Part shown: positions 19,649-31,348 of the stretch, one piece after another
Position numbering within the stretch: position 1 is the stretch's first letter
How the letters are laid out: each line of letters opens with the position of its first letter
Assembly (NCBI RefSeq): GCF_011297335.1
Contig: NZ_JAAOTJ010000004.1
Span: forward strand, 186,001 to 250,000
Direction of reading: 5' to 3'
DNA length: 64,000 bases
From: Catellatospora methionotrophica
GTDB taxonomy: Bacteria; Actinomycetota; Actinomycetes; Mycobacteriales; Micromonosporaceae
The notes under the pieces: generated by a model
Told to the model about the DNA's origin: nothing
Seen by the model: the letters and a program-made list of their open reading frames with translations, nothing else
Databases searched by the model: none
Translations under genes and position numbers: made by a program

Positions 19649-20791
19649 TCAGCCGCGGGTGTGGGAGCCGAGCATGTGGACCTGGCCGGTGCCCTCGATG
19701 ATGTCGCCGACGTGCCAGCACTCGACACCACGGCCGGTGAGCAGGGCCATCGCGCGGTCGGCGTCGGCGGCCGAGACGACGGCGAACATGCCGACGCCCA
19801 TGTTGAAGGTCGACTCCAGGTCGTGCTGGTCGATGCGGCCCTTGCGCTGGATCAGGTCGAAGATGGGCTGCGGGGCCCAGGTCGACCGGTTCACCGTCGC
19901 GTCGAGGTGCTTCGGGAGTACGCGGACCAGGTTGCCGGGGATGCCGCCGCCGGTGACGTGGACCAGGGCGTGGACCTCGCACTCGGCGATCAGGCTCAGG
20001 CAGTCCTTGGCGTAGATCTTGGTGGGCGTCAGCAGTTCCTCGCCGAGGGTGCGCTGGTCGCCCAGATCCTCGATGACCGAGTCGAGCTTCAGGCGAGCCT
20101 GGCCGAGCAGCACGTGGCGGACCAGCGAGTAGCCGTTGGAGTGCAGGCCGGACGAGCGCATGGCGATGACGACGTCACCGGGCTGCACCCGCTCGGCACC
20201 GAGGATCATGTCCTCCTCGACGACGCCGACGCCGTTGGCCGACAGGTCGTACTCGTCCGGGCGCATCAGGCCGGGGTGCTCGGCGGTCTCGCCGCCCAGC
20301 AGCGCGCATCCGGCGTAGCGGCAGCCGTCGGCGATGCCCGCGCCGATCTCGGCGATCCGGTCCGGGACGACCTCGCCGCAGGCGATGTAGTCGAGCAGGA
20401 ACAGCGGCTCCGCGCCGCACGCGACCAGGTCGTCGACGACCATCGCGACCAGGTCGATGCCGACCGTGTCGTGGATGTTCATCTGCTGCGCGATGGCCAG
20501 CTTGGTGCCCACGCCGTCGGTGGAGGAGGCCAGCACCGGGCTGCGGTACTTGGAGGTGTCGAGCTTGAACAGGCCGGAGAATCCGCCGAGCCCGCCCAGC
20601 ACCTCCGGCCGGTGCGTACGCGCGACCTTGTCCTTCAGCATCTCCACGGCCTTGTCGCCGGCGTGGATGGACACGCCCGCGTCGGCGTAGGTGACGGTGC
20701 GGCGGCGGTTGGTGCTGCCCTCCGCCGTCCACAGCTGACGGTCTCCGTTCTCCGGTTGCCCGGATACGGGGCGCTCGGTCACGTGCGTCAC
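19649..20791 (-). CDS. purM: Phosphoribosylformylglycinamidine cyclo-ligase (AIR synthetase)
   Basis: A 380-residue ATP-dependent cyclase making AIR from FGAM. Conserved blocks: SSTDGVGTKLAIAQ, DYIACGEV, LLGGETAEHPG, SSGLHSNGYSLVRHVL, HVTGGGIPGNLVRVLP and FNMGVGMFAVV. GTG at 20791 has AGAGGAG seven bases upstream. An N-terminal extension of about 35 residues (TERPVSGQPENGDRQLWTAE) precedes the usual TYADAGVSI start. It lies 64 bp behind purF in the same direction and is probably co-transcribed with it. Confidence 0.95.
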   Translation of the reverse strand: MTHVTERPVSGQPENGDRQLWTAEGSTNRRRTVTYADAGVSIHAGDKAVEMLKDKVARTHRPEVLGGLGGFSGLFKLDTSKYRSPVLASSTDGVGTKLAIAQQMNIHDTVGIDLVAMVVDDLVACGAEPLFLLDYIACGEVVPDRIAEIGAGIADGCRYAGCALLGGETAEHPGLMRPDEYDLSANGVGVVEEDMILGAERVQPGDVVIAMRSSGLHSNGYSLVRHVLLGQARLKLDSVIEDLGDQRTLGEELLTPTKIYAKDCLSLIAECEVHALVHVTGGGIPGNLVRVLPKHLDATVNRSTWAPQPIFDLIQRKGRIDQHDLESTFNMGVGMFAVVSAADADRAMALLTGRGVECWHVGDIIEGTGQVHMLGSHTRG

Positions 20792-20855
20792 GGTATTTCT
20801 CCTCTTGGTGCGCGGCACCGCTCTGGGAAGGGTCGCGGTGCCGTGACGAGTGGTA

Positions 20856-22376
20856 CTAGGACCGGCTCAGTTCCGTCGTCGGAGCTGAGGCCTGGTCGCC
20901 GCTGAGCTCCTCGGACCCGACCCGGCGGCCGACCCCTTCGAGCACGTGTTTTCCGATCAGGTTGCTGGCCGGCAGCTTGATCGGGTATTCGCCGTCGAAA
21001 CAGGCCCGGCACAGGCGGTTCTTCGGCTGCTCGGTGGCCGAGATGAGGCCTTCGAGCGACACGTAGCCGAGCGAGTCGGCACCGATGGAGCGGCGGATGC
21101 CCTCCATGTCCATGCCGTTGGCCAGCAGTTCGGCGCCGGTCGCGAAGTCGATGCCGTAGAAACACGGCCACTTCACCGGCGGAGAGGAGATGCGCACGTG
21201 CACCTCCAGCGCGCCCGCCTCGCGCAGCATGCGCACGATGGCGCGCTGCGTGGTGCCGCGCACGATGGAGTCGTCGACCACGACGAGGCGCTTGCCCCGC
21301 ACGTTGTCGCGCAGTGGGTTCAATTTGAGGCGTACGCCCAGCGCGCGGATGGTCTGCGACGGCTGGATGAAGGTGCGGCCCACGTAGGCGTTCTTCATGA
21401 AGCCCTGGCCGTACGGGATGCCGGAGGCCTCGGCGTAGCCGATCGCGCCCGGCGTGCCCGACTCGGGCACGGGGATGACCAGATCGGCGTCGACCGGGTG
21501 CTCGGCGGCCAGCCGGCGGCCGATCTCCACCCGGGTCGAGTACATGTTGCGGCCGTTGATGGTCGCGTCGGGGCGGGCCAGGTAGACGTACTCGAACAGG
21601 CAGCCCTTGGGGTCCGGGGCGGCGAAGCGCGAGGAGCGCAGACCGTACTCGTCGATGGCGATCAGTTCGCCGGGTTCGACCTCGCGGACCACGGACGCGC
21701 CGACGATGTCGAGGGCGGCCTGCTCGCTGGCGACGACCCAGCCGCGCTCCAGGCGGCCCAGCACCAGGGGGCGTACGCCGTGGTGGTCGCGGGCGGCGTA
21801 GAGGGTGTTCTCGTCCATGAAGACGAAGCTGAAAGCGCCCTCGACGGTCGGCAGCACCTTCATCGCGGCGGCCTCGACGGACAGGTCCGGGTGACCGGCC
21901 AGCAGCATCGTCACCAGGGTCGTGTCGTTGGTGGAGCCGCGGCTGTCCATGCCGAGCTCGGCGGCGCGGCGGGCCAGGTCGGCGGTGTTGACCAGGTTGC
22001 CGTTGTGGGCCAGTGCGATCGTGGTGCCCGAGGTGGTCGACTGCAGCGTGGGCTGAGAGTTCTCCCAGGTCGAGTCGCCGGTGGTCGAGTAGCGCGCATG
22101 CCCGATGGCGAGGTGCCCGCGCAGGCTGGCCAGCGTCGGCTCGTCGAAGACCTGGGCGACCAGACCGACGTCCTTGTAGACCACCACGCCGGATCCGTCG
22201 CTCACCGCGATCCCGGCGGCCTCCTGGCCGCGGTGCTGCAGCGCGTACAGGCCGAAGTAGGTGAGCTTGGCAACCTCTTCACCAGGAGCCCAGACACCGA
22301 AGACGCCGCATGCGTCTTGCGGGCCTGGCCGGTGGGGGTCGAGTTCGTGGCTCAACCGGCCGTCGCCTCGGGGCAC
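20856..22376 (-). CDS. purF: Amidophosphoribosyltransferase
   Basis: The first committed enzyme of purine synthesis. The N-terminal Ntn glutaminase uses the Cys in PQDACGVFGVW, preceded by a short propeptide that must be removed (MPRGDGRLSHELDPHRPGPQDA). The phosphoribosyltransferase domain carries VVVDDSIVRGTTQ. Four cysteines in the C-terminal half (including KWPCFYGID and NRLCRACFDGEYPI) match the [4Fe-4S]-type PurF. GTG 22376 follows AAGGAG at seven bases. Length is 506 residues. It is followed by purM. Confidence 0.95.
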   Translation of the reverse strand: MPRGDGRLSHELDPHRPGPQDACGVFGVWAPGEEVAKLTYFGLYALQHRGQEAAGIAVSDGSGVVVYKDVGLVAQVFDEPTLASLRGHLAIGHARYSTTGDSTWENSQPTLQSTTSGTTIALAHNGNLVNTADLARRAAELGMDSRGSTNDTTLVTMLLAGHPDLSVEAAAMKVLPTVEGAFSFVFMDENTLYAARDHHGVRPLVLGRLERGWVVASEQAALDIVGASVVREVEPGELIAIDEYGLRSSRFAAPDPKGCLFEYVYLARPDATINGRNMYSTRVEIGRRLAAEHPVDADLVIPVPESGTPGAIGYAEASGIPYGQGFMKNAYVGRTFIQPSQTIRALGVRLKLNPLRDNVRGKRLVVVDDSIVRGTTQRAIVRMLREAGALEVHVRISSPPVKWPCFYGIDFATGAELLANGMDMEGIRRSIGADSLGYVSLEGLISATEQPKNRLCRACFDGEYPIKLPASNLIGKHVLEGVGRRVGSEELSGDQASAPTTELSRS

Positions 22377-22568
22377 CCTGTTGCTCCTTGCGCTTGTCGC
22401 TTCAGTAGCTGCCTAGATGCCCTGCTCAGTGAGCCGGCATCGGTGGTGTGTGTCGGCGTCCGGCGGCGATCGCCGCCGCAGCTCAGTGTACGTGACCCGG
22501 CAGGGCGGCCACCTCGGTGGCCGGAGTGTGTGCTACGTGACGGAATGCCGACTGCCCGTCGATGGTCA

Positions 22569-22925
22569 CTAGACAATAGGGAAAAGTGAACTGATATCGG
22601 ACCTGATACCGCTGGCCCGAATCCGCCCATCCGCGACGGCGGTGACCCATTCCACTCGGCCTGCGGCGAGTAGCAGGAACGTCACCGGGTCCGTTTCGAC
22701 GAGGTTCGGGGGCGTGCCTCTGGTGTGCGTGGGCCCCGCGACGCACTGAATCGCGCCATAAGGGGGAATGCGCACCTCCACCGAACGGCCAGGAGCCGTG
22801 GCCGCAAGATGTGCCAACAGTGCCCTAACCGCATCGCGGAGCGTCAAACGTTCCGGAGTCTGGCCGGTGGCCAGGCAGTCCAGAGCCGCCGTCACGGCGG
22901 GGGAGATTTCCGGCGAGGGGGACAT
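22569..22925 (-). CDS. SCP2-like sterol-carrier family protein
   Basis: A 118-residue protein (MSPSPEISPAVTAALD...) of the small actinobacterial family annotated as sterol carrier protein that is habitually found upstream of purF. A C-terminal SCP2-like fold is suggested by VRIPPYGAIQCV, ETDPVTFLLLAAGRVEWVTAVADGRIRASG and DISSLFPI. The ligand is unknown. It lies in the same direction as purF with a 192-bp gap holding no recognised signal. Confidence 0.7.
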   Translation of the reverse strand: MSPSPEISPAVTAALDCLATGQTPERLTLRDAVRALLAHLAATAPGRSVEVRIPPYGAIQCVAGPTHTRGTPPNLVETDPVTFLLLAAGRVEWVTAVADGRIRASGIRSDISSLFPIV

Positions 22926-23080
22926 AAGCGGACGATACAAGATGACTTCCACTCACTTTGTCTCGGCCCTGGGTCGCGCAACCCTTGCTTCGCAAGGCAT
23001 AGTTGCGGTCGGTGTATTCCCGCAGCGCCCCCCACACCCCGATCGCTGTGGGATATCGAGGAGCTTGGAAGGCGGTGGCC

Positions 23081-25105
23081 GTGACTACCCAGCGACGGTC
23101 CTGGTTGGCACGCGTCGGAGTGGTAGCGATGGTGTCACTCGGCACTCTCGTCGGCGTCTCCGCTCCTGCTTTGGCGGCGACCACGGTCTCCGCGGCTGGC
23201 GTATCCGTCGAGGCGGGCGGCGCGGAGAAGGCGGCGAACGTCACGATCGCGGTCGGCACGGCGGCGGAAGACGTCGACCTCAACAACGTCGACATCAAGC
23301 TGGAGAACCTGCCCAGCGGTGTTGTCTGCTCCTCTGGCTGCAGCGCGCAGTTCAGCGTCACCAAGGGCAATTCGGTGACCCGGGCGATCAAGTTGAAGGC
23401 TGCCTCGAACGCCGCGATCGGTTCGTCATCGGCGACGGTCAAGGTCGGCTCGCTGACCGCGAACATGCAGATCACCGTGGCCGAGCGCGTGCAGCAGGCC
23501 GAGACGACCGGGAAGATCTCCGGCGTGGTACGCGACCAGAAGACCGGCGACCCGATCAGCGGTGCCATCGTGCAACTGTCTGATGGCGACGGCAAGGAGT
23601 TCCCGACCAAGACGACGGGCTCAGCCGGCACCTTCCTGTTCGACCCTGCCAAGCTCGGCCCGATTGGGCCAGGCTTGATCGTCGTGACCGTCAGCAAGGA
23701 CCCGTACACGCTGAAGTCCGTGTCGGTGACCCTGAACAACGGGCAGTCCAAAGCTGACGTCAACGTCTCGATGGTCGACCCGACTGCGGCCAGCGCCTCG
23801 CCGAGCCTGGGATCGCCTCCGCCGGAGGAGAGCCCGCTCGCCGAGGAGTCCAGCGACACCAGCGGTGAAACCGTGACCACGGATGCGGCCTCCAACTCGG
23901 AGGACGAGGGTCTCGGCACGATGACCTGGGTCATGATCATCCTGGGTGGCCTGCTGGTCGCGCTGGGCATCGGCGCGATCGTGCTGCTCGTGATGAAGCG
24001 TGGCGGCGATGACGACGACGATGACGATGATGACGACGACGATGACGACGAGCCGGTGCGCGGCCGTCCGGTGCGTCCCGCCCAGCAGCCCGTTCGCGCG
24101 GGTGCCGGAGCCGGTGCCTACGGCGGTGGCGCCGCCTACGGCCGCCCCGCCGACCCGACGATGGTGGCCCGCCCGGGTGCCTCGGACGCGACGGTGATGC
24201 ACCGTCCCGGCGAGTACGGCGGCGTGCCCGCGCAGCGCGGCCCGCAGCAGCCCTACGGTGCCCCGGCCCAGCCGACGCAGCAGTACGGCGGCTACGGCTC
24301 CCCCGCCCAGCCGACCCAGCAGTACGGCGGCTACGACGCCCAGGCGGGCGGCGGCTACGGCGGCTCCCCGGTCGCACCGACCAGCGGCTACGGCAGCCCG
24401 GCGCCCACCAGCGGCTACGGCAGCCCGGCCCCGACGTCGGGCTACGGCAGCCCCGCCCCGACGTCCGGCTACGGCAACCCCGCGCCGACCAGCGGCTACG
24501 GCTCCCCGTCCGACGCCTACGGCTCGACGACCCCGACCTCTGGCTACAGCGGCGGTCAGCCCAGCTACGACCAGGGCTACGGCCAGCAGGCGGGCTACGG
24601 TCAGCAGCAGCCGGCGTACGGCCAGGAGCAGCCGGCGTACGGCCAGGAGCAGTACGGCCAGCAGCCGGGCTACGGCCAGCAGCAGCAGGGCTACCAGGGC
24701 CAGTACGACGAGCCCACGCACTACGCGGGCCCGACGTCCGGCGGTAGCGCCTACGGCCAGCAGCAGCCCGGCGGGTACGGGCAGCAGCAGCAGCCGGGAT
24801 ACGGGCAGGAGCAGTACGGCCAGCAGCCGGCATACGGCCAGCAGGACCCGTACGGCGCGCCCCAGTCCGGTGGCGGATACAGCGGCGGCCAGCAGCAGCC
24901 GGGCTACGGCCAGCAGGACCCGTACGGCCAGCAGCCGGGCTACGGCCAGCAGCAGGACCCGTACGGCACGCCTCCGGCGAGCGGCTACGGCCAGCAGGAC
25001 CCGTACGGCCAGCAGCAGGGCGGTTACGGCCAGCAGGGCAGCGGTTACAACGACGACCGCCGCAGCAACCGCGACAACCGCCGTCTCGACTGGCTCGACG
25101 ACTGA
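23081..25105 (+). CDS. Membrane protein with extracellular Ig-like/CarboxypepD_reg part and prion-like Gly-Tyr-Gln tail
   Basis: A 674-residue protein from GTG 23081. Its order is: signal peptide ([25 protein letters not shown]); an extracellular beta domain (about 30-150); a carboxypeptidase-regulatory-like domain ([25 protein letters not shown], about 155-230); a Ser/Glu-rich stalk; one transmembrane helix ([25 protein letters not shown], about 280-304); then KRGG and 14 consecutive Asp. The remaining 350 residues are presumably cytoplasmic low complexity built from PTSGYGSPA units and then [16 protein letters not shown] units, ending in a basic [15 protein letters not shown]. The tail resembles eukaryotic FUS-type prion-like domains in composition. 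The family is not recognised. Confidence 0.8.
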
Positions 25106-25125
25106 GCCACGGCCCTCGTGACGAA

Positions 25126-25158
25126 CAGACGCCCCCCGGGAATCCCGGGGGGCGTCTG
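25126..25158. terminator. Strong hairpin terminator
   Basis: Perfect 15-bp stem CAGACGCCCCCCGGG (25126-25140) and its complement (25144-25158) with loop AAT, 20 bp after the preceding stop. There is no U-tract, as usual in actinomycetes. Confidence 0.8.
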
Positions 25159-25246
25159 CGTGTGCGGGACACCTCCCCCGGCGTGTCGGTGCGCACCGGG
25201 CGCGGGAGGGGAGACAGGGGGCGGGGAGGTTTGCTGGAATGGTGGG

Positions 25247-26365
25247 GTGACCACCGTCAACGGCATGCGCGGGGTATCGCGCGTGCCGGCTTATGTGGTG
25301 ATGCAGCCCACGACCCTGTGCAACCTGGACTGCGTCTACTGCTACCTGCCCCTGCGCGCCCAGGACCGCCGGATGCCGGTGGAGGTGGCGCGGGCGGTGG
25401 CCGCCGACGCGAACCTCTGGGCGGCCCGCGAGCGCTTCTCCGTGGTCTGGCACGGAGGTGAGCCGCTGGCGGCCGGCAGGGAGCACCTGGCGGCGCTGAT
25501 GGCCCCGTTCGACCCTGGCGTGGAGCAGCACGTGCAGACCAACGCGACGCTGCTGGACGACGCCTGGTGCGAGTTCTTCGCCGCCCGGCGGGTGCGGGTG
25601 AGCGTGAGCGTGGACGGGCCCGGGGACCTCAACGGGCAGCGGATCTCGCGGGCGGGGCGGCCCGCGTACGACCGGATCGTGCGGGGGATCGCGGCGCTGC
25701 GCCGGCACGGGCAGCCTTTCGCCGCGCTGTGTGTGGTGGGGGATCCGCGGCCGGGCGTGGCGTCCCGGCTGTACGAGTACTTCCTCGAGCTGGGCTGTGA
25801 CACGCTCGGCATCAACATCGAGGAGCGGGAGGGCGTCAACGAACGTCCCAACTCCCATGACCCGGATGCGGTGCGGGCCTTCTGGGCCGAGCTGGTCGCG
25901 GCGTGGCGGGCCGATCCGCGGATCCACGTCCGCGAGCTGGAGTGGAGTCTGCGCTATGTCGGCGCGGTGCTCGACGGCACGTCCGGCGACCTGCTGCCGC
26001 GGGAGCTGGACCCGATTCCGACCGTCGGGCACGACGGCGCGGTGGTGCTGCTCTCGCCGGAGCTGGCCGGGTTCCACGATCCGGTGCACGGCGACTTCAG
26101 CAGCGGCAACGTGTTGCGCACGCCGCTGTCGCGGCTGCTGGCCGAGCCGGGGCGCACCAGCTGGGTGCCGGAGTTCCTCAGCGGGGTCGAGGCCTGCCGC
26201 GACACCTGCCCGTACTTCGGCTTCTGCGGTGGCGGGCACGCCGCCAACAGGTACTTCGAGCACGGAAGGTTCGACGGCACGGAGACCGAGCACTGCCGCA
26301 ACAGCAAGATCAACCTACTGGAGGGAGTGCTCGACCATGTCCGACTCGCTGGAACGAGTGGCTGA
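25247..26365 (+). CDS. amcB: Radical SAM/SPASM cyclophane-type peptide maturase (AmcB-like)
   Basis: A 372-residue radical SAM enzyme. The cluster motif is CNLDCVYC (CxxxCxxC) in PTTLCNLDCVYCYLPLRAQ, followed by VVWHGGEPLAAG, VQTNATLLDDAWCEFF and SVSVDGPGDLN, as in anSME-like peptide maturases. The C-terminal SPASM part has EACRDTCPYFGFCGGGHAANRYFEHG and a final TEHC. GTG 25247 is taken; ATG 25265 is also possible. The 3' end overlaps a 64-residue gene with RiPP-precursor features, so the enzyme probably installs Csp2 aromatic crosslinks in that peptide. The AmcB assignment is by resemblance of enzyme plus precursor to the actinobacterial multiple-cyclophane RiPP family as I recall it. Confidence 0.82.
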   Translation: MTTVNGMRGVSRVPAYVVMQPTTLCNLDCVYCYLPLRAQDRRMPVEVARAVAADANLWAARERFSVVWHGGEPLAAGREHLAALMAPFDPGVEQHVQTNATLLDDAWCEFFAARRVRVSVSVDGPGDLNGQRISRAGRPAYDRIVRGIAALRRHGQPFAALCVVGDPRPGVASRLYEYFLELGCDTLGINIEEREGVNERPNSHDPDAVRAFWAELVAAWRADPRIHVRELEWSLRYVGAVLDGTSGDLLPRELDPIPTVGHDGAVVLLSPELAGFHDPVHGDFSSGNVLRTPLSRLLAEPGRTSWVPEFLSGVEACRDTCPYFGFCGGGHAANRYFEHGRFDGTETEHCRNSKINLLEGVLDHVRLAGTSG

Positions 26366-26531
26366 CCGGATCCGCGACGCGCGTGGCGAACTGGCTCCCC
26401 TGCTGGAGGAGGCCCGGCTCGCCCGACTGGCCCGAAGCGAAGTGCCAGGCGCAGACAGCAGTGCTGTCTGCGCCTGGAACCACTTCGAGAACATCCCGAC
26501 GTTCTTCAACTGGAACAACCGGCCACGCTGA
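26337..26531 (+). CDS. amcA: RiPP precursor peptide (AmcA-like)
   Basis: A 64-residue gene overlapping the maturase by 29 bp, with GGAGGGAG upstream of ATG 26337. The leader is an amphipathic helix (SDSLERVADRIRDARGELAP LLEEARLARLARSE). A linker (VPGADSSAV) leads to the C-terminal core CAWNHFENIPTFFNWNNRPR. The core places aromatic residues two before Asn (W-N, F-x-N, F-F-N, W-N-N), the pattern radical SAM enzymes crosslink as three-residue cyclophanes. No transporter or protease gene is adjacent. A perfect 15-bp stem-loop lies within the gene at the leader/core boundary. Confidence 0.82.
   Translation: MSDSLERVADRIRDARGELAPLLEEARLARLARSEVPGADSSAVCAWNHFENIPTFFNWNNRPR
26445..26477 (+). promoter_or_regulatory. 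Intragenic stem-loop at the leader/core junction of the RiPP precursor
   Basis: CCAGGCGCAGACAGC (26445-26459), loop AGT, then the exact complement (26463-26477). It encodes most of the PGADSSAVCAW junction. Fifteen uninterrupted pairs with a 3-nt loop inside a coding sequence is unusual; it could limit read-through or time core translation, but this is inference. Confidence 0.6.
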
Positions 26532-26551
26532 GGCGGCCGTCGTTCAGGAAG

Positions 26552-26800
26552 TCAGCGGCGGGGAGTCCAGTCCTTACCGTCGTCGTCATCGTCGTCGTCG
26601 ACGGCATAGTTCCCGTACGGGTCGTACGGGTCCGGCTCGTCGTCGTCCGGCTGTTCCTCGACAACAGCACTGCCGCTGCCGCTGCTGAGCTCGCTACCGG
26701 CAAGCTCGCGCTGCAAGGCGGCGAGGTCGGTGTTCGGGGAGTGGTACTTCAACTCCCGGGCCACCTTAGTCTGCTTGGCCTTAGCTCGGCCGCGCCCCAT
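26552..26800 (-). CDS. DUF3073 family small acidic protein
   Basis: An 82-residue protein starting MGRGRAKAKQTKVARELKYHS, the invariant start of DUF3073, a family confined to Actinobacteria. The N-terminus is basic, the middle SPNTDLAALQRELAG is helical, and the C-terminus is acidic (EEQPDDDEPDPYDPYGNYAVDDDDDDDG). Function is unknown. GAGGGGG precedes the ATG. It converges on the RiPP precursor with 20 bp between the stops. Confidence 0.9.
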   Translation of the reverse strand: MGRGRAKAKQTKVARELKYHSPNTDLAALQRELAGSELSSGSGSAVVEEQPDDDEPDPYDPYGNYAVDDDDDDDGKDWTPRR

Positions 26801-26952
26801 GGCCGACCCCCTCGCACATGAATGACGGGGCTACCCGAAGGCGGGCCCCGATGACGTCAGACATCTCTCGTGGGTCATACGGTACATGGGAGGAGGCCAC
26901 TTCGGCATCTCGGGTTACCGGGTGTCTGGCAGCACATCGGAACCTGTCCGTT

Positions 26953-26990
26953 TTATTACTGGTAAGGACTAATTCGCGCCCCAGTAATAA
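26953..26990. repeat. Inverted repeat upstream of DUF3073 gene
   Basis: TTATTACTGG (26953-26962) and CCAGTAATAA (26981-26990), an AT-rich perfect 10-bp pair in the 319-bp gap between DUF3073 and the amino-acid dehydrogenase. The rest of this gap holds only the second inverted repeat below; no gene is seen. Confidence 0.5.
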
Positions 26991-27035
26991 CGCCCCAGCC
27001 GCGCGACCAGCGCCGGAACGCGTCCTTGATCGCGG

Positions 27036-27094
27036 AAGTTGCCTGGCAATCGGGCGAATGACTGCTCAAGATACGCACGATTGCCAGGCAACTT
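27036..27094. terminator. Long hairpin downstream of amino-acid dehydrogenase gene
   Basis: AAGTTGCCTGGCAATC (27036-27051) and its exact complement (27079-27094), a 16-bp stem with a 27-nt loop. It sits 26 bp past the stop of the minus-strand dehydrogenase gene, so a terminator role is likely. A regulator operator cannot be excluded. Confidence 0.5.
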
Positions 27095-27119
27095 GAATGA
27101 TCTAGATCCGGGCGTGGCG

Positions 27120-28244
27120 CTAGATCCGGATGGTGCGCAGGCGGCCGACCTCGGCCATGCGCTGCTCGGCGAGGCGGTCGGCGGCGGTGGCCGGCGAGAT
27201 GCCCTCGGTGTCCGCGAGCTGCAGAATCCGCTTGGTCGTGTCGTAGATCTTGGTGGCGCGCAGCTTGGCCCGGTCGAAGTTGAAGCCGTCGATCTCGTCC
27301 GCGACCTGGATCACACCGCCCGAGTTGACCAGGTAGTCGGGTGCGTACAGGATGCCGCGGTCGAGCAGCAGCTTCTCGATGCCGGTGTGGGCGAGCTGGT
27401 TGTTGGCCGCGCCCGCGACGATCTGGGCCCGCAGCGCGGGCACGGTGTCGTCGTTGAGCGCGCCGCCCAGCGCGCAGGGCGCGTAGACGTCGATGTCGCT
27501 GGTGATCAGCGCGGTGGCGTCGGCCACCAGGCTCACCTGCGGGTACGTCGCCTGCGCCCACTCCAGGGCCTTCGGGCTGACATCGGTGGCCACGACCTCC
27601 GCGCCGTCCTCGACCAGGTGCGCGACCAGGTACTTGCCGACCTTGCCCAGGCCCGCCACGCCGACCCGCCTGCCCTTGAGCGACGGGGTGCCCCAGCGGT
27701 GCTCGGCCGCGGCGCGCATGCCCTGGAAGACGCCCCAGGCGGTCAGGATGGAGGAGTCGCCGGCGCCGCCGTACTCCACGCTGCGGCCGGTGACGAACTG
27801 CGTCTCCCGGGCCACCACGTCCATGTCCTGCACGTACGTGCCGACGTCGCAGGCGGTGTAGTAGCGCCCGCCGAGGGACTGCACGAAGCGGCCGTACGCG
27901 CGCAGCAGCTGCTCGGACTTGATCTGGTCCGGGTCGCCCCAGATGACGGCCTTGCCGCCGCCCAGGTCGAGCCCGGCGAGGGCGTTCTTGTACGCCATGC
28001 CGCGGGACAGGTCCAGCACGTCGTGCAGGGCCTCCTCCTCCGACGCGTACGGGTAGAAGCGCGTGCCGCCCAGGGCGGGCCCCAGCGCGGTCGAGTAGAT
28101 GCCGATGATCGCTTTCAGGCCGCTGGCCCGGTCCTGGCAGAACACGACCTGTTCGTGACTGCCGTCGGTGAATACGCCCACTGCTGGCTCCAAGGTGACG
28201 TCGATGGCCCTTGTGAGGTCATCCTGCTCGGTCTCGCGGACCAC
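27120..28244 (-). CDS. vdh: Valine/leucine dehydrogenase (Glu/Leu/Phe/Val DH family)
   Basis: NAD-dependent oxidative deaminase of branched-chain amino acids, supplying precursors for branched fatty acids and polyketides in actinomycetes. Substrate and catalytic blocks are [19 protein letters not shown], the [27 protein letters not shown] segment with catalytic lysines, and [18 protein letters not shown]. The Rossmann motif is [17 protein letters not shown] and [10 protein letters not shown] follows. GTG 28244 gives 374 residues, near the usual length; the frame is open back to 28310 through an Arg-rich stretch. Valine versus leucine preference cannot be read from the sequence. Confidence 0.88.
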
Positions 28245-28361
28245 GGCGCGCCGCCGGCGAGTGACAGCTCGCCGGCCGACTCCCCGCCATCCGCCGAGGG
28301 GTCGGGCCACGCCGCGGTAGCGACGCTCCCGCTGACAGCCTAATCGTGGGAGGATCGCGAG

Positions 28362-29189
28362 GTGCCGTCACAGTTCGCCGCGTACCTGAGGGTCTACGAG
28401 CCGCTCACCGCGTTCGCGCCGGAACGTGAACGATTCTGGCGTCGATACGTCGACGAGGGGCGGGCCGTCGGGGTGTCCGACGGGCCCGGCCGCCAGCGCG
28501 CGACGGTGCTCGAGGCGCTCGGCGCGGGCTGGTCGCGGCTGCCGGACCTGCCCGATGAGGCGTATGTCATGCAGGGGCTGACCGGCCAGACCGACGTGAC
28601 CCTGGTCTGCCCGTGGAACCTGCGGGTGCGGGTGGCCGAGGCGGCGCTGCAGGCGCGTGACGGGGTGCCGCAGGTGCTGGCCGACGCGTTCGTGCCGCCG
28701 GTGCTGGTGGACCTGGCACAGACCGTGGTCGAGCAGACCCGGGCCGAGGACCGCATGCACGAGCAGGTCGCCACCTGGGGCGTGCCGTTGCGCTGGTTCG
28801 TGCTGGTCTCGCCGGCGGAGCGCGACCTGGTGCTGGAGCCGACCCGCCGGGTGCTGCGCTACCGCACCGAGATCGGCAAGGCCCGCCAGCGGGCCCACAA
28901 GGGGCTGCGCGTGCTGCGCCGGACCCTGGGCGACGTGCCCATCACCGACTCGCTGCGGGAGACCGCCCGCTGGCTGGAGTCGTTCCACCCGGGCTCGGTC
29001 GTCGAGCTGGACTACGGCGGCCTGACCGGGCTGCTGTCCGAGGACGCGCTGCGTGACGACGACTCCGTCGAGCTGGTCGCGACGGGTCTGGCCGGGCTGG
29101 AGCGCGAGGACGGCGACGCGGCCACGGCGGCGTACGAGCAGCTGGTGCAGCGGTGGCGGGCGATCCAGCTGATGGAACGCAGCAACTGA
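28362..29189 (+). CDS. Conserved actinobacterial hypothetical protein
   Basis: A 275-residue soluble protein starting [30 protein letters not shown]. It looks all-helical with a long basic helix in the centre ([24 protein letters not shown]) and an acidic C-terminal third. There is no signal, membrane segment or metal motif. I do not recognise a domain. It is divergent from vdh and upstream of bldC in the same direction. Confidence 0.75.
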
Positions 29190-29406
29190 CACTGAGTAGT
29201 TTTCAGGTCACGTGTAGTGATCGAAAGCTATGAAATTACTGTCTTCATCCGCTAAAAGCAGACATGTCGTTCATTCATCATCCGTCCATCCACGGACCTT
29301 CACCCGTTCGGCCCATGTCGGACATCGGGGACTAGCCGGACTATGGGTAGCGCGTTGGCCGGCGGGACCCCGGCCTACGTCTATAGGTACTTGTGGAGGA
29401 GACCGC

Positions 29407-29616
29407 ATGGCGTCGCGTACGCACGAACCAGAACCCCTGCTCACCCCGGCAGAGGTCGCATCGATGTTCCGCGTCGACCCGAAGACGGTGACCCGGTGGG
29501 CCAAGGCGGGCAAGCTCAGTGCGATTCGCACGCTGGGCGGCCACCGTCGCTACCGTGAGTCGGAGGTGCGCGCTCTGCTCCAGGGTCAGATCCCGCACCA
29601 GCGTCAGGGCGACTGA
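29407..29616 (+). CDS. bldC: Developmental regulator BldC
   Basis: A 69-residue MerR-like DNA-binding protein consisting of a single winged helix-turn-helix: LLTPAEVASMFRVDPKTVTRWAKAGKLSAIRTLGGHRRYRESEVRALLQGQ. It is near-identical in pattern to Streptomyces BldC, which binds head-to-tail on repeats and delays entry into development. ATG 29407 sits behind GGAGGAG. The 217-bp upstream gap is AT-rich for this genome (AAAGCTATGAAATTACTG around 29224-29241) and is probably the promoter region. A large hairpin follows the gene. Confidence 0.95.
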   Translation: MASRTHEPEPLLTPAEVASMFRVDPKTVTRWAKAGKLSAIRTLGGHRRYRESEVRALLQGQIPHQRQGD

Positions 29617-29718: not shown

Positions 29719-30396
29719 TCAGGGGACCAGTGCGCCGTCGCGGAGGGTGACGACCCGGTCGGCCATCTCCATCAGCGCGGCGTCGTGGGTGGCGACCAGG
29801 GCGGTCATGCCCCGGGCGTGGACCAGGGCGCGGAGCAGGTCCATGATCTGGCGGCCGGTCTCGGAGTCGAGCTGGCCGGTGGGTTCGTCGGCGATGAGCA
29901 GCTGCGGATCGTTGGCCAGTGCGCGGGCCACCGCGACGCGCTGCTGCTGGCCACCGGACAGCTCGTACGGCCGCTGGTTGGCGTGCGCGCCGACCCCGAC
30001 CAGCTCCAGCAGTACCGACACGCGCTGCTCCCGCTCGGCGGGCGGCACCTTGGCCAGCCGCAGCGGCACGCCCACGTTCTCGGCCGCGGACAGGATCGGC
30101 ACGAGGCCGAACGACTGGAACACGAACCCGATCACGTCCCGGCGCAGCGTCACAAGCTGCGGCTCGGCCGCGGAGGTGACCTCCTGACCGGCGATGAAGA
30201 CCTTGCCCGACGTCGGCCGGTCCAGCCCGCCGATGATGTTGAGCAGGGTCGTCTTGCCCGCCCCGGAACGCCCGCGCACCGCGACCAGCTCGCCGCGCCC
30301 GGCGGTGAACGACACGTCGCGCACCGCGTGCACGACCTTGCCGCCTCGGCCGAAGTCGCGGCAAATGTTCTCCACCCTGACCAGCTCGTCAGCCAC
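29719..30396 (-). CDS. ABC transporter ATPase (MacB/LolD-like)
   Basis: A 225-residue ATPase with Walker A GRSGAGKTT, Q-loop FVFQSFGLVPIL, signature LSGGQQQRVAVARALA, Walker B LLIADEPTGQLD and the switch His in VATHD. This class pairs with FtsX-type permeases in mechanotransmission or lipoprotein/antimicrobial peptide export. GTG 30396 overlaps the stop of the upstream ATPase gene by 8 bp. It is the last gene of the four-gene minus-strand operon. Confidence 0.9.
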   Translation of the reverse strand: MADELVRVENICRDFGRGGKVVHAVRDVSFTAGRGELVAVRGRSGAGKTTLLNIIGGLDRPTSGKVFIAGQEVTSAAEPQLVTLRRDVIGFVFQSFGLVPILSAAENVGVPLRLAKVPPAEREQRVSVLLELVGVGAHANQRPYELSGGQQQRVAVARALANDPQLLIADEPTGQLDSETGRQIMDLLRALVHARGMTALVATHDAALMEMADRVVTLRDGALVP

Positions 30397-31348
30397 GGCG
30401 CACCTCCACATGGTCGGACTCCAGGTTCAGCTTCACCCGGTCCTTGAGTTCCAGTTCCTGCACGAACGACTGCGGCAGCTGCATCCGGCCCGCCCGGTCC
30501 AGCACCGCGTACTCCTCGCTGACCAGCTCCGTGCCACCGTCGGCGGTGACCCGCGCACTGCGGCGCACCTCCGAGGCCAGCCGCCCGTCGCGGATCGCCA
30601 CGGTACGCCGCACCTGCGTGGAGACGTTCGGGTCGTGGGTCACCACCACCACCGTCACACCCAGCTCGGCGTTGATGGTCTGCAGCGCCTTGAACACGTC
30701 CGCCGCCGTCGACTCGTCCAGCTCACCGGTCGGCTCGTCGGCGAACAGCACCTCGGGGTCGTTGGCCACGGCCAGCGCCACCGCGACGCGCTGCTGCTCG
30801 CCGCCGGACATCTGATCCGGCCGCCGGTCCGCGCAGTAGCCGACGCCGACCATCTCCAGCAGCTCGTACGCCCGCTGCCGGGCCGCCCGGCCGGACCGGG
30901 TGCCGGCCAGCCGCATCGGCGTGATCACGTTCTCCAGCGCGGTCAGGTACGGCAGCAGGTTGCGGCCGGTCTGCTGCCAGACGAAACCGACCATGTGCCG
31001 CCGGTACGACAGCCGCCGCCCTGCCTTCATGGTGAGCAGGTCGTACTCGCCCACGCGGGCGATACCCGCCGTCGGCACGTCGAGCCCGGACAGGATGTTG
31101 AGCAGCGTCGACTTGCCCGACCCCGACGCACCCACGATCGCCAGCAGCTCACCGCGGTCCACCACCAGGTCCAGGCCCTGGAGCGCGACCACCTCGACAC
31201 CCTCGGTCTTGTAGATCCGCACCAGCCCGTCACACACCAGGTGTCCACGCAGCCGGTCCGCGCCGCCCGCCCGGTCGGCGGCCCGCTGCGCGGCCCGTGC
31301 CTGCAGCGTGGCCAGATCCGGCGCGCTCGTCATCTCACTAGTCGACAT
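30389..31348 (-). CDS. ABC transporter ATPase with C-terminal AbrB-like extension
   Basis: A 319-residue protein. An N-terminal Ala-rich helix (about 1-35) precedes a full ATPase: Walker A GASGSGKST, Q-loop FVWQQTGRNLLPYL, signature MSGGEQQRVAVALAVA, Walker B VLFADEPTGELD, switch VVTHD. After the ATPase there are about 70 extra residues, including EYAVLDRAGRMQLPQSFVQELELKDRVKLNLESDHVEVR, which reads like an AbrB/MazE swapped-hairpin barrel. Its ATG overlaps the stop of the 884-residue permease gene. Confidence 0.88.
   Translation of the reverse strand: MSTSEMTSAPDLATLQARAAQRAADRAGGADRLRGHLVCDGLVRIYKTEGVEVVALQGLDLVVDRGELLAIVGASGSGKSTLLNILSGLDVPTAGIARVGEYDLLTMKAGRRLSYRRHMVGFVWQQTGRNLLPYLTALENVITPMRLAGTRSGRAARQRAYELLEMVGVGYCADRRPDQMSGGEQQRVAVALAVANDPEVLFADEPTGELDESTAADVFKALQTINAELGVTVVVVTHDPNVSTQVRRTVAIRDGRLASEVRRSARVTADGGTELVSEEYAVLDRAGRMQLPQSFVQELELKDRVKLNLESDHVEVRRG

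Follow-up and report, generated by a model that had tools for sequence, protein, structure and literature searches.

An AMC type 3a triceptide pair with a near-invariant core at a fixed chromosomal site in the Micromonosporaceae, and a putative signal-like role of its product

The amcB and amcA genes, located in a 64,000-nucleotide stretch of a Catellatospora methionotrophica contig [NZ_JAAOTJ010000004.1] (hereafter the window), form, to judge from their sequences, an AMC (multiple cyclophane) triceptide pair of type 3a, an already catalogued kind. In our main reading, to which we assign a probability of about 0.75, the precursor core would acquire three cyclophanes, and the product would be a signal or regulator with a conserved partner in the producers themselves. 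AMC triceptides were reportedly described by Phan and Morinaka in 2022 (ACS Chem Biol 17:3284). The site fixation, the core invariance and the incongruence between core types 3a and 3b are comparative results of the present analysis, and what makes the pair interesting is how constant its core and site are, together with the apparent exchange of the two core types.

Table 1. Features of the amcB-amcA pair (positions in the window)
Feature	Position	Strand	Basis
amcB, cyclophane-forming radical SAM/SPASM maturase, 366 aa	25265..26365	+	NF041718, Pfam Radical_SAM, conserved Cys
amcA, 64-aa precursor peptide, type 3a	26337..26531	+	NF041722; frame kept in relatives
amcB end/amcA start overlap, 29 nt	26337..26365	+	sequence; overlapping ATG in 106/108 relatives
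GGAGGG, likely amcA ribosome-binding site	26320..26325	+	read from sequence
AmcA leader, residues 1-42	26337..26462	+	column conservation, 100 type-3a precursors
AmcA core, residues 43-64, AVCAWNHFENIPTFFNWNNRPR	26463..26528	+	near-invariant; pN 0.0053, pS 0.302
Triad 1, F50-E-N52, predicted crosslink	26484..26492	+	F-x-D or W-x-D in 3b relatives
Triad 2, F56-F-N58, predicted crosslink	26502..26510	+	F-x-Q or F-x-E in 3b relatives
Triad 3, W59-N-N61, predicted crosslink	26511..26519	+	F-x-N in 3b relatives

AmcB passed the curated model NF041718 (508.8 bits; cut-off 425) and AmcA passed NF041722 (AmcA_3a; 111.8 bits; cut-off 65), while AmcA remained below the cut-off of the type 3b model NF041723 (22.7 bits; cut-off 65). 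The scores of AmcB were also insufficient for TIGR04261 (GrrM/OscB; 227.8 bits; cut-off 310), TIGR04269 (FxsB; 88.9 bits; cut-off 370) and the XyeB model (59.4 bits; cut-off 450), of which XncB is presumably a member; among the best 25 of 57 models for AmcB, none besides NF041718 exceeded its own cut-off. As in other AMC members, the precursor adjoins the maturase (with the 29-nt overlap) and contains three aromatic-x-Asn motifs with i/i+2 spacing. All three cysteines of the CNLDCVYC motif are conserved in 111 of 112 aligned AmcB relatives (the remaining one has a gap), and C102, C311, C315, C321 and C344 in all 112. The initial annotation had proposed a SPASM radical SAM maturase with an overlapping 64-residue precursor, of the kind that forms three-residue cyclophanes, and had named AmcA as a lead; the open reading frames, the overlap and the two family models agree with it in each of these respects. 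Its prediction of a new multicyclic product did not hold, since the pair is catalogued and the same core is shared across relatives.

The amcB gene was taken to start at the ATG at 25265, with a GTG at 25247 as the alternative, and its stop codon ends at 26365. The complete AmcA peptide is MSDSLERVADRIRDARGELAPLLEEARLARLARSEVPGADSSAVCAWNHFENIPTFFNWNNRPR. Its frame forms the tail of a 266-codon mechanical ORF (25731-26531), so that the gene is indeed hidden, as had been claimed, inside a longer meaningless frame. It probably is translationally coupled to amcB via the overlap, and the putative ribosome-binding site lies 11 nt upstream of its ATG. An in-frame amcA ATG lying inside the final 52 nt of amcB was found in 106 of 108 related loci with a pattern-recognised precursor (108 out of 109; L181, by reading, was dropped, its ending lying outside the precursor pattern). 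Thus, the frame proposed as absent from homologous loci if the claim were wrong is present in relatives and the claim stands. Since AmcA passes a curated precursor model and the core is under purifying selection in relatives, the amcA frame goes beyond chance. The leader has the conserved pattern L-x2-LL-x-EA-x2-AR-x2-R-x-E in the 100 type-3a precursors, and this pattern may serve in recognition by AmcB. An Rfam scan of 24000-29500 gave no match at gathering score, and no promoter or terminator was found in a scan of 25080-26900. Conserved blocks are visible in the upstream alignment among relatives, and we attach no regulatory meaning to them. By eye, an inverted repeat is seen near 25126-25158, 3' of the upstream gene, without a T run.

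The pair is widespread in its family. Matches to the AmcB family (E 1e-50 or better) were revealed in 35 of 44 genera, namely in 260 of the 300 family genomes, a count that includes contig-edge pieces and at least one genome (G041) with a type-1 pair elsewhere only; in 258 of the 300 genomes the matches were over the NF041718 cut-off. The precursor search gave matches in 247 of 300 family genomes, of which at least four are type 3b and a minority had their precursor sequences read; the 3b precursor model was exceeded in 11 of 300. Precursors from seven Catellatospora records are 80-94% identical to AmcA of the window. Close AmcB matches become sparse beyond the family: 38 of 249 genomes at the order level (36 of them from the same family) and 6 of 246 at the class level (three from the same family) were over the AmcB cut-off. 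FDN/WDN type-1 precursors accompany AmcB in eight of 12 loci drawn from the order and class matches and from family genomes that carry a second copy, and all three of those tested pass the AmcA_1 model. The window's genus is represented by 11 genomes, and four of them (G016, G051, G071 and G129) each have two AmcB matches.

The order amcB, amcA, DUF3073, vdh is kept in all 80 named loci, and the nearest upstream query gene is purM in 70 of them; in eight the upstream block is inverted (the Catellatospora-type order) and in two no upstream query gene is present on the contig. In the window's group, the inverted block (19649-25105) comprises purM, purF, SCP_3 and a YQ-rich gene, in contrast to the 70 named loci. 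At 23003-25105, a frame of 700 residues combines a CarboxypepD_reg domain with a run of Asp residues and a long tail rich in GYGQQQ. In the 3b loci L192, L194, L233 and L234 it is the DUF3073-vdh-g28362-bldC segment that is inverted, and bldC adjoins the amc pair. BldC is encoded by a regulator gene; the bldC near the pair was named by similarity.

About 3.2 kb downstream of the pair, beside bldC, two ABC ATPase genes are located (29719-31348). Together with two large frames extending to 37223 they resemble an exporter of the MacB/FtsX type. The first ATPase was found in nine and the second in eight of the 80 named relatives' loci, and another three loci (L238, L242 and L246) have both; the ATPases are therefore no constant partner of the pair, and we set them aside as its dedicated exporter. 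The earlier statement that neither transporter nor peptidase lies nearby thus has to be corrected for these ATPases; a scan of nine neighbour proteins detected no peptidase.

In the flanking-gene tree of 59 rows, the amc-bearing rows group together provided that L253 is included with them; this locus, whose contig starts inside amcB and contains a 3b precursor, had been entered as a row without the pair. The remaining 13 rows that lack the pair fall outside this group. G041 was kept among them, since its contig has another gene beside DUF3073, with no AMC precursor in the frame read there, and its AmcB (43.6% identical, with a type-1-like precursor) lies in a different place. A single basal gain without any later loss in the sampled rows would be compatible with this tree, in which gain and loss are by themselves indistinguishable and a number of rows have sparse data or long branches.

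In the AmcB tree, the 3b rows form one group with support of 100/99.6 (8 rows), whereas the flanking genes place the 3b lineages separately and reject a single 3b group (AU p 0.007 with 8 rows; 0.0004 with 7 rows, a set picked after seeing the tree). Conversely, the flanking genes join four 3b rows to the Catellatospora group, an arrangement that the AmcB data weakly reject (AU p 0.035). Long rows were left out deliberately, seven from the flanking-gene test and two from the AmcB test. Since lineages that the flanking genes keep apart carry type 3b at one and the same site, the simplest reading suggests that the amcB-amcA cassette was replaced between lineages at a constant site. Strictly vertical descent of the two core types is disfavoured by the conflict between the two trees. 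Convergence of the 3b maturases under the influence of a similar core, with no cassette exchange between lineages, would be another explanation: the enzyme must fit its core, so that parallel changes are possible, and the AmcB data speak against the flanking-gene grouping only at the weak level given above. We consider it rather unlikely in view of the strong support for one 3b group in AmcB and of its rejection by the flanking genes in both sets of rows.

The 3b cores, exemplified by GWRPFEDAFPTFYQFTNRPR, GPRPFEDAFPTFYQFSNRPQR, GWRAFSDAFPTFWEFSNRPR and RWTDVFTTQFTEFSNRPR, also bear on the number of crosslinks. Several acceptors, aromatic residues and spacers as well as the linker are altered in them, and three aromatic-x-N/D/Q/E triads are kept, giving over both types the consensus F/W-x-N/D, F-x-N/Q/E and W/F-x-N. 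As these three triads are retained, three crosslinks (F50-N52, F56-N58 and W59-N61) are predicted with better support than four. The initial annotation had counted four aromatic-to-Asn pairings; the core contains only three i, i+2 triads, W47-N48-H49 not being one. Four cyclophanes were accordingly set aside, W47 being gone in four of 12 3b cores. It might be supposed that AmcB of the same pair adds to the three triads a fourth modification, at W47 (W47-N48-H49) or C45, given that W47, N48, H49 and C45 are invariant across the 79 distinct type-3a core sequences. However, 3b cores read W-R-P or W-R-A at this place, or have P instead of W (4/12), and lack the Cys, even though they sit with a related AmcB at the same chromosomal site; a fourth link is thus not general, and we regard such a modification as improbable. 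A shortened core, TYYNWNNRSR, without triad 1 was observed at L249:6600-6940, alongside a diverged AmcB at the usual site.

Within type 3a the core is almost unchanging. The 79 distinct core DNA sequences encode the peptide AVCAWNHFENIPTFYNWNNRPR in 64 cases, its F57 form in 13 and two single variants. The same 22-residue core (F or Y at position 57) was found in all 30 loci of the set collected by whole-peptide similarity and in 20 of 25 further matches of this kind, the weakest included; among the five exceptions, one differs at its end only and four are type 3b. In the 100 type-3a loci (out of the 106 whose ATG lies in the required range), pN/pS is 0.017 for the core (pN 0.0053, pS 0.302) and 0.59 for the leader (pN 0.277, pS 0.468); for AmcB, calculated from the first 60 of these loci, it is 0.30 (pN 0.114, pS 0.377). 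It should be mentioned that the 80 named loci and most of the 100 pN/pS loci were found by core patterns, which biases them towards invariance; in 17 loci picked without core patterns the mean identity of the core is 0.969. For comparison, seven neighbour proteins yield 1814 windows of this length (22 residues), of which 62 reach 0.975 and 56 reach 0.98, the latter all in PurM and BldC, while the best window of AmcB has 0.921. By this measure, the core comes close to the most tightly conserved regions of the housekeeping proteins nearby and is under stronger constraint than its own maturase. Since PurM and BldC windows are equally conserved, conservation alone is no proof of signalling.

Taken together with the wide distribution, the fixed site and the apparent exchange of 3a and 3b cassettes, this constraint favours a conserved signal-like or housekeeping peptide rather than an antibiotic. 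The near-invariant core, the drifting leader and the single chromosomal site make it most likely that the product has a conserved binding partner in the producers themselves and not a target in competitors. That the pair makes an ordinary antimicrobial or competition peptide for secretion, some crosslinked radical-SAM RiPPs such as darobactin and dynobactin being antibiotics (PMC11002830), seems very unlikely, given a near-invariant core present in most of the family at a fixed site and neither exporter nor peptidase among the neighbours common to the relatives and the window.

More tentatively, AMC type 3 might represent a clade-wide housekeeping or signalling RiPP of the Micromonosporaceae that was acquired a single time and became fixed between the purine genes on one side and DUF3073, vdh and bldC on the other. 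A conserved partner would recognise its nearly invariant three-ring core, and its 3a and 3b alleles would have been exchanged between lineages. This is possible, and we would put it somewhat below even odds. If true, exchange of the 3a and 3b cassettes would resemble a change of signal type. The two alleles at one site offer a natural test of specificity, and a crosslinked peptide that is nearly letter-perfect across many genera, near bldC, gives a good handle on the role of such peptides. The chemistry of triceptide enzymes is known from other members. For the AMC group we found no description of a role, and none of its role or conservation in the Micromonosporaceae was recognised in the literature covered, a weak absence as most subscription journals lie outside that coverage.

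According to the proposed scheme, AmcB would bind the AmcA leader and abstract the beta-hydrogen from N52, N58 and N61, and each Asn beta-carbon would be joined to the aromatic ring two residues earlier (F50, F56 and W59, respectively). The modified core would then contain three three-residue cyclophanes, with a total mass change of -6.05 Da. It would subsequently be cleaved off, cleavage and any export being provided by genes elsewhere, or the peptide might stay intracellular. We infer leader binding, the radical at the Asn beta-carbon and the bond to the ring for AmcB and AmcA by analogy with the triceptide mechanism outlined in PMC12026744 and with the products of XncB and OscB (PMC11002830).

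Among known systems, the pair is alike to the AMC triceptides (NF041718 with AmcA types 1, 3a and 3b): both genes exceed the curated cut-offs, the core is of type 3a, and no defining difference was found. The GrrM/OscB and XncB maturases are radical SAM/SPASM enzymes like AmcB and, as described in PMC11002830, bond an aromatic carbon to the beta-carbon of the i+2 residue, often Asn; AmcB is set apart by score from GrrM/OscB (227.8 of 310 bits) and XyeB (59.4 of 450). With regard to the role, which we derive from the constancy of core and site, a parallel may be drawn with the SCIFF ranthipeptides, which are clade-wide in Clostridia and, in a review (PMC8326336), are considered unlikely antimicrobials and listed under quorum sensing. 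SCIFF and AMC peptides would thus be alike in their way of working only, as clade-wide radical-SAM peptides, whereas SCIFF peptides differ in having Cys thioether links and an unrelated precursor and in belonging to another clade.
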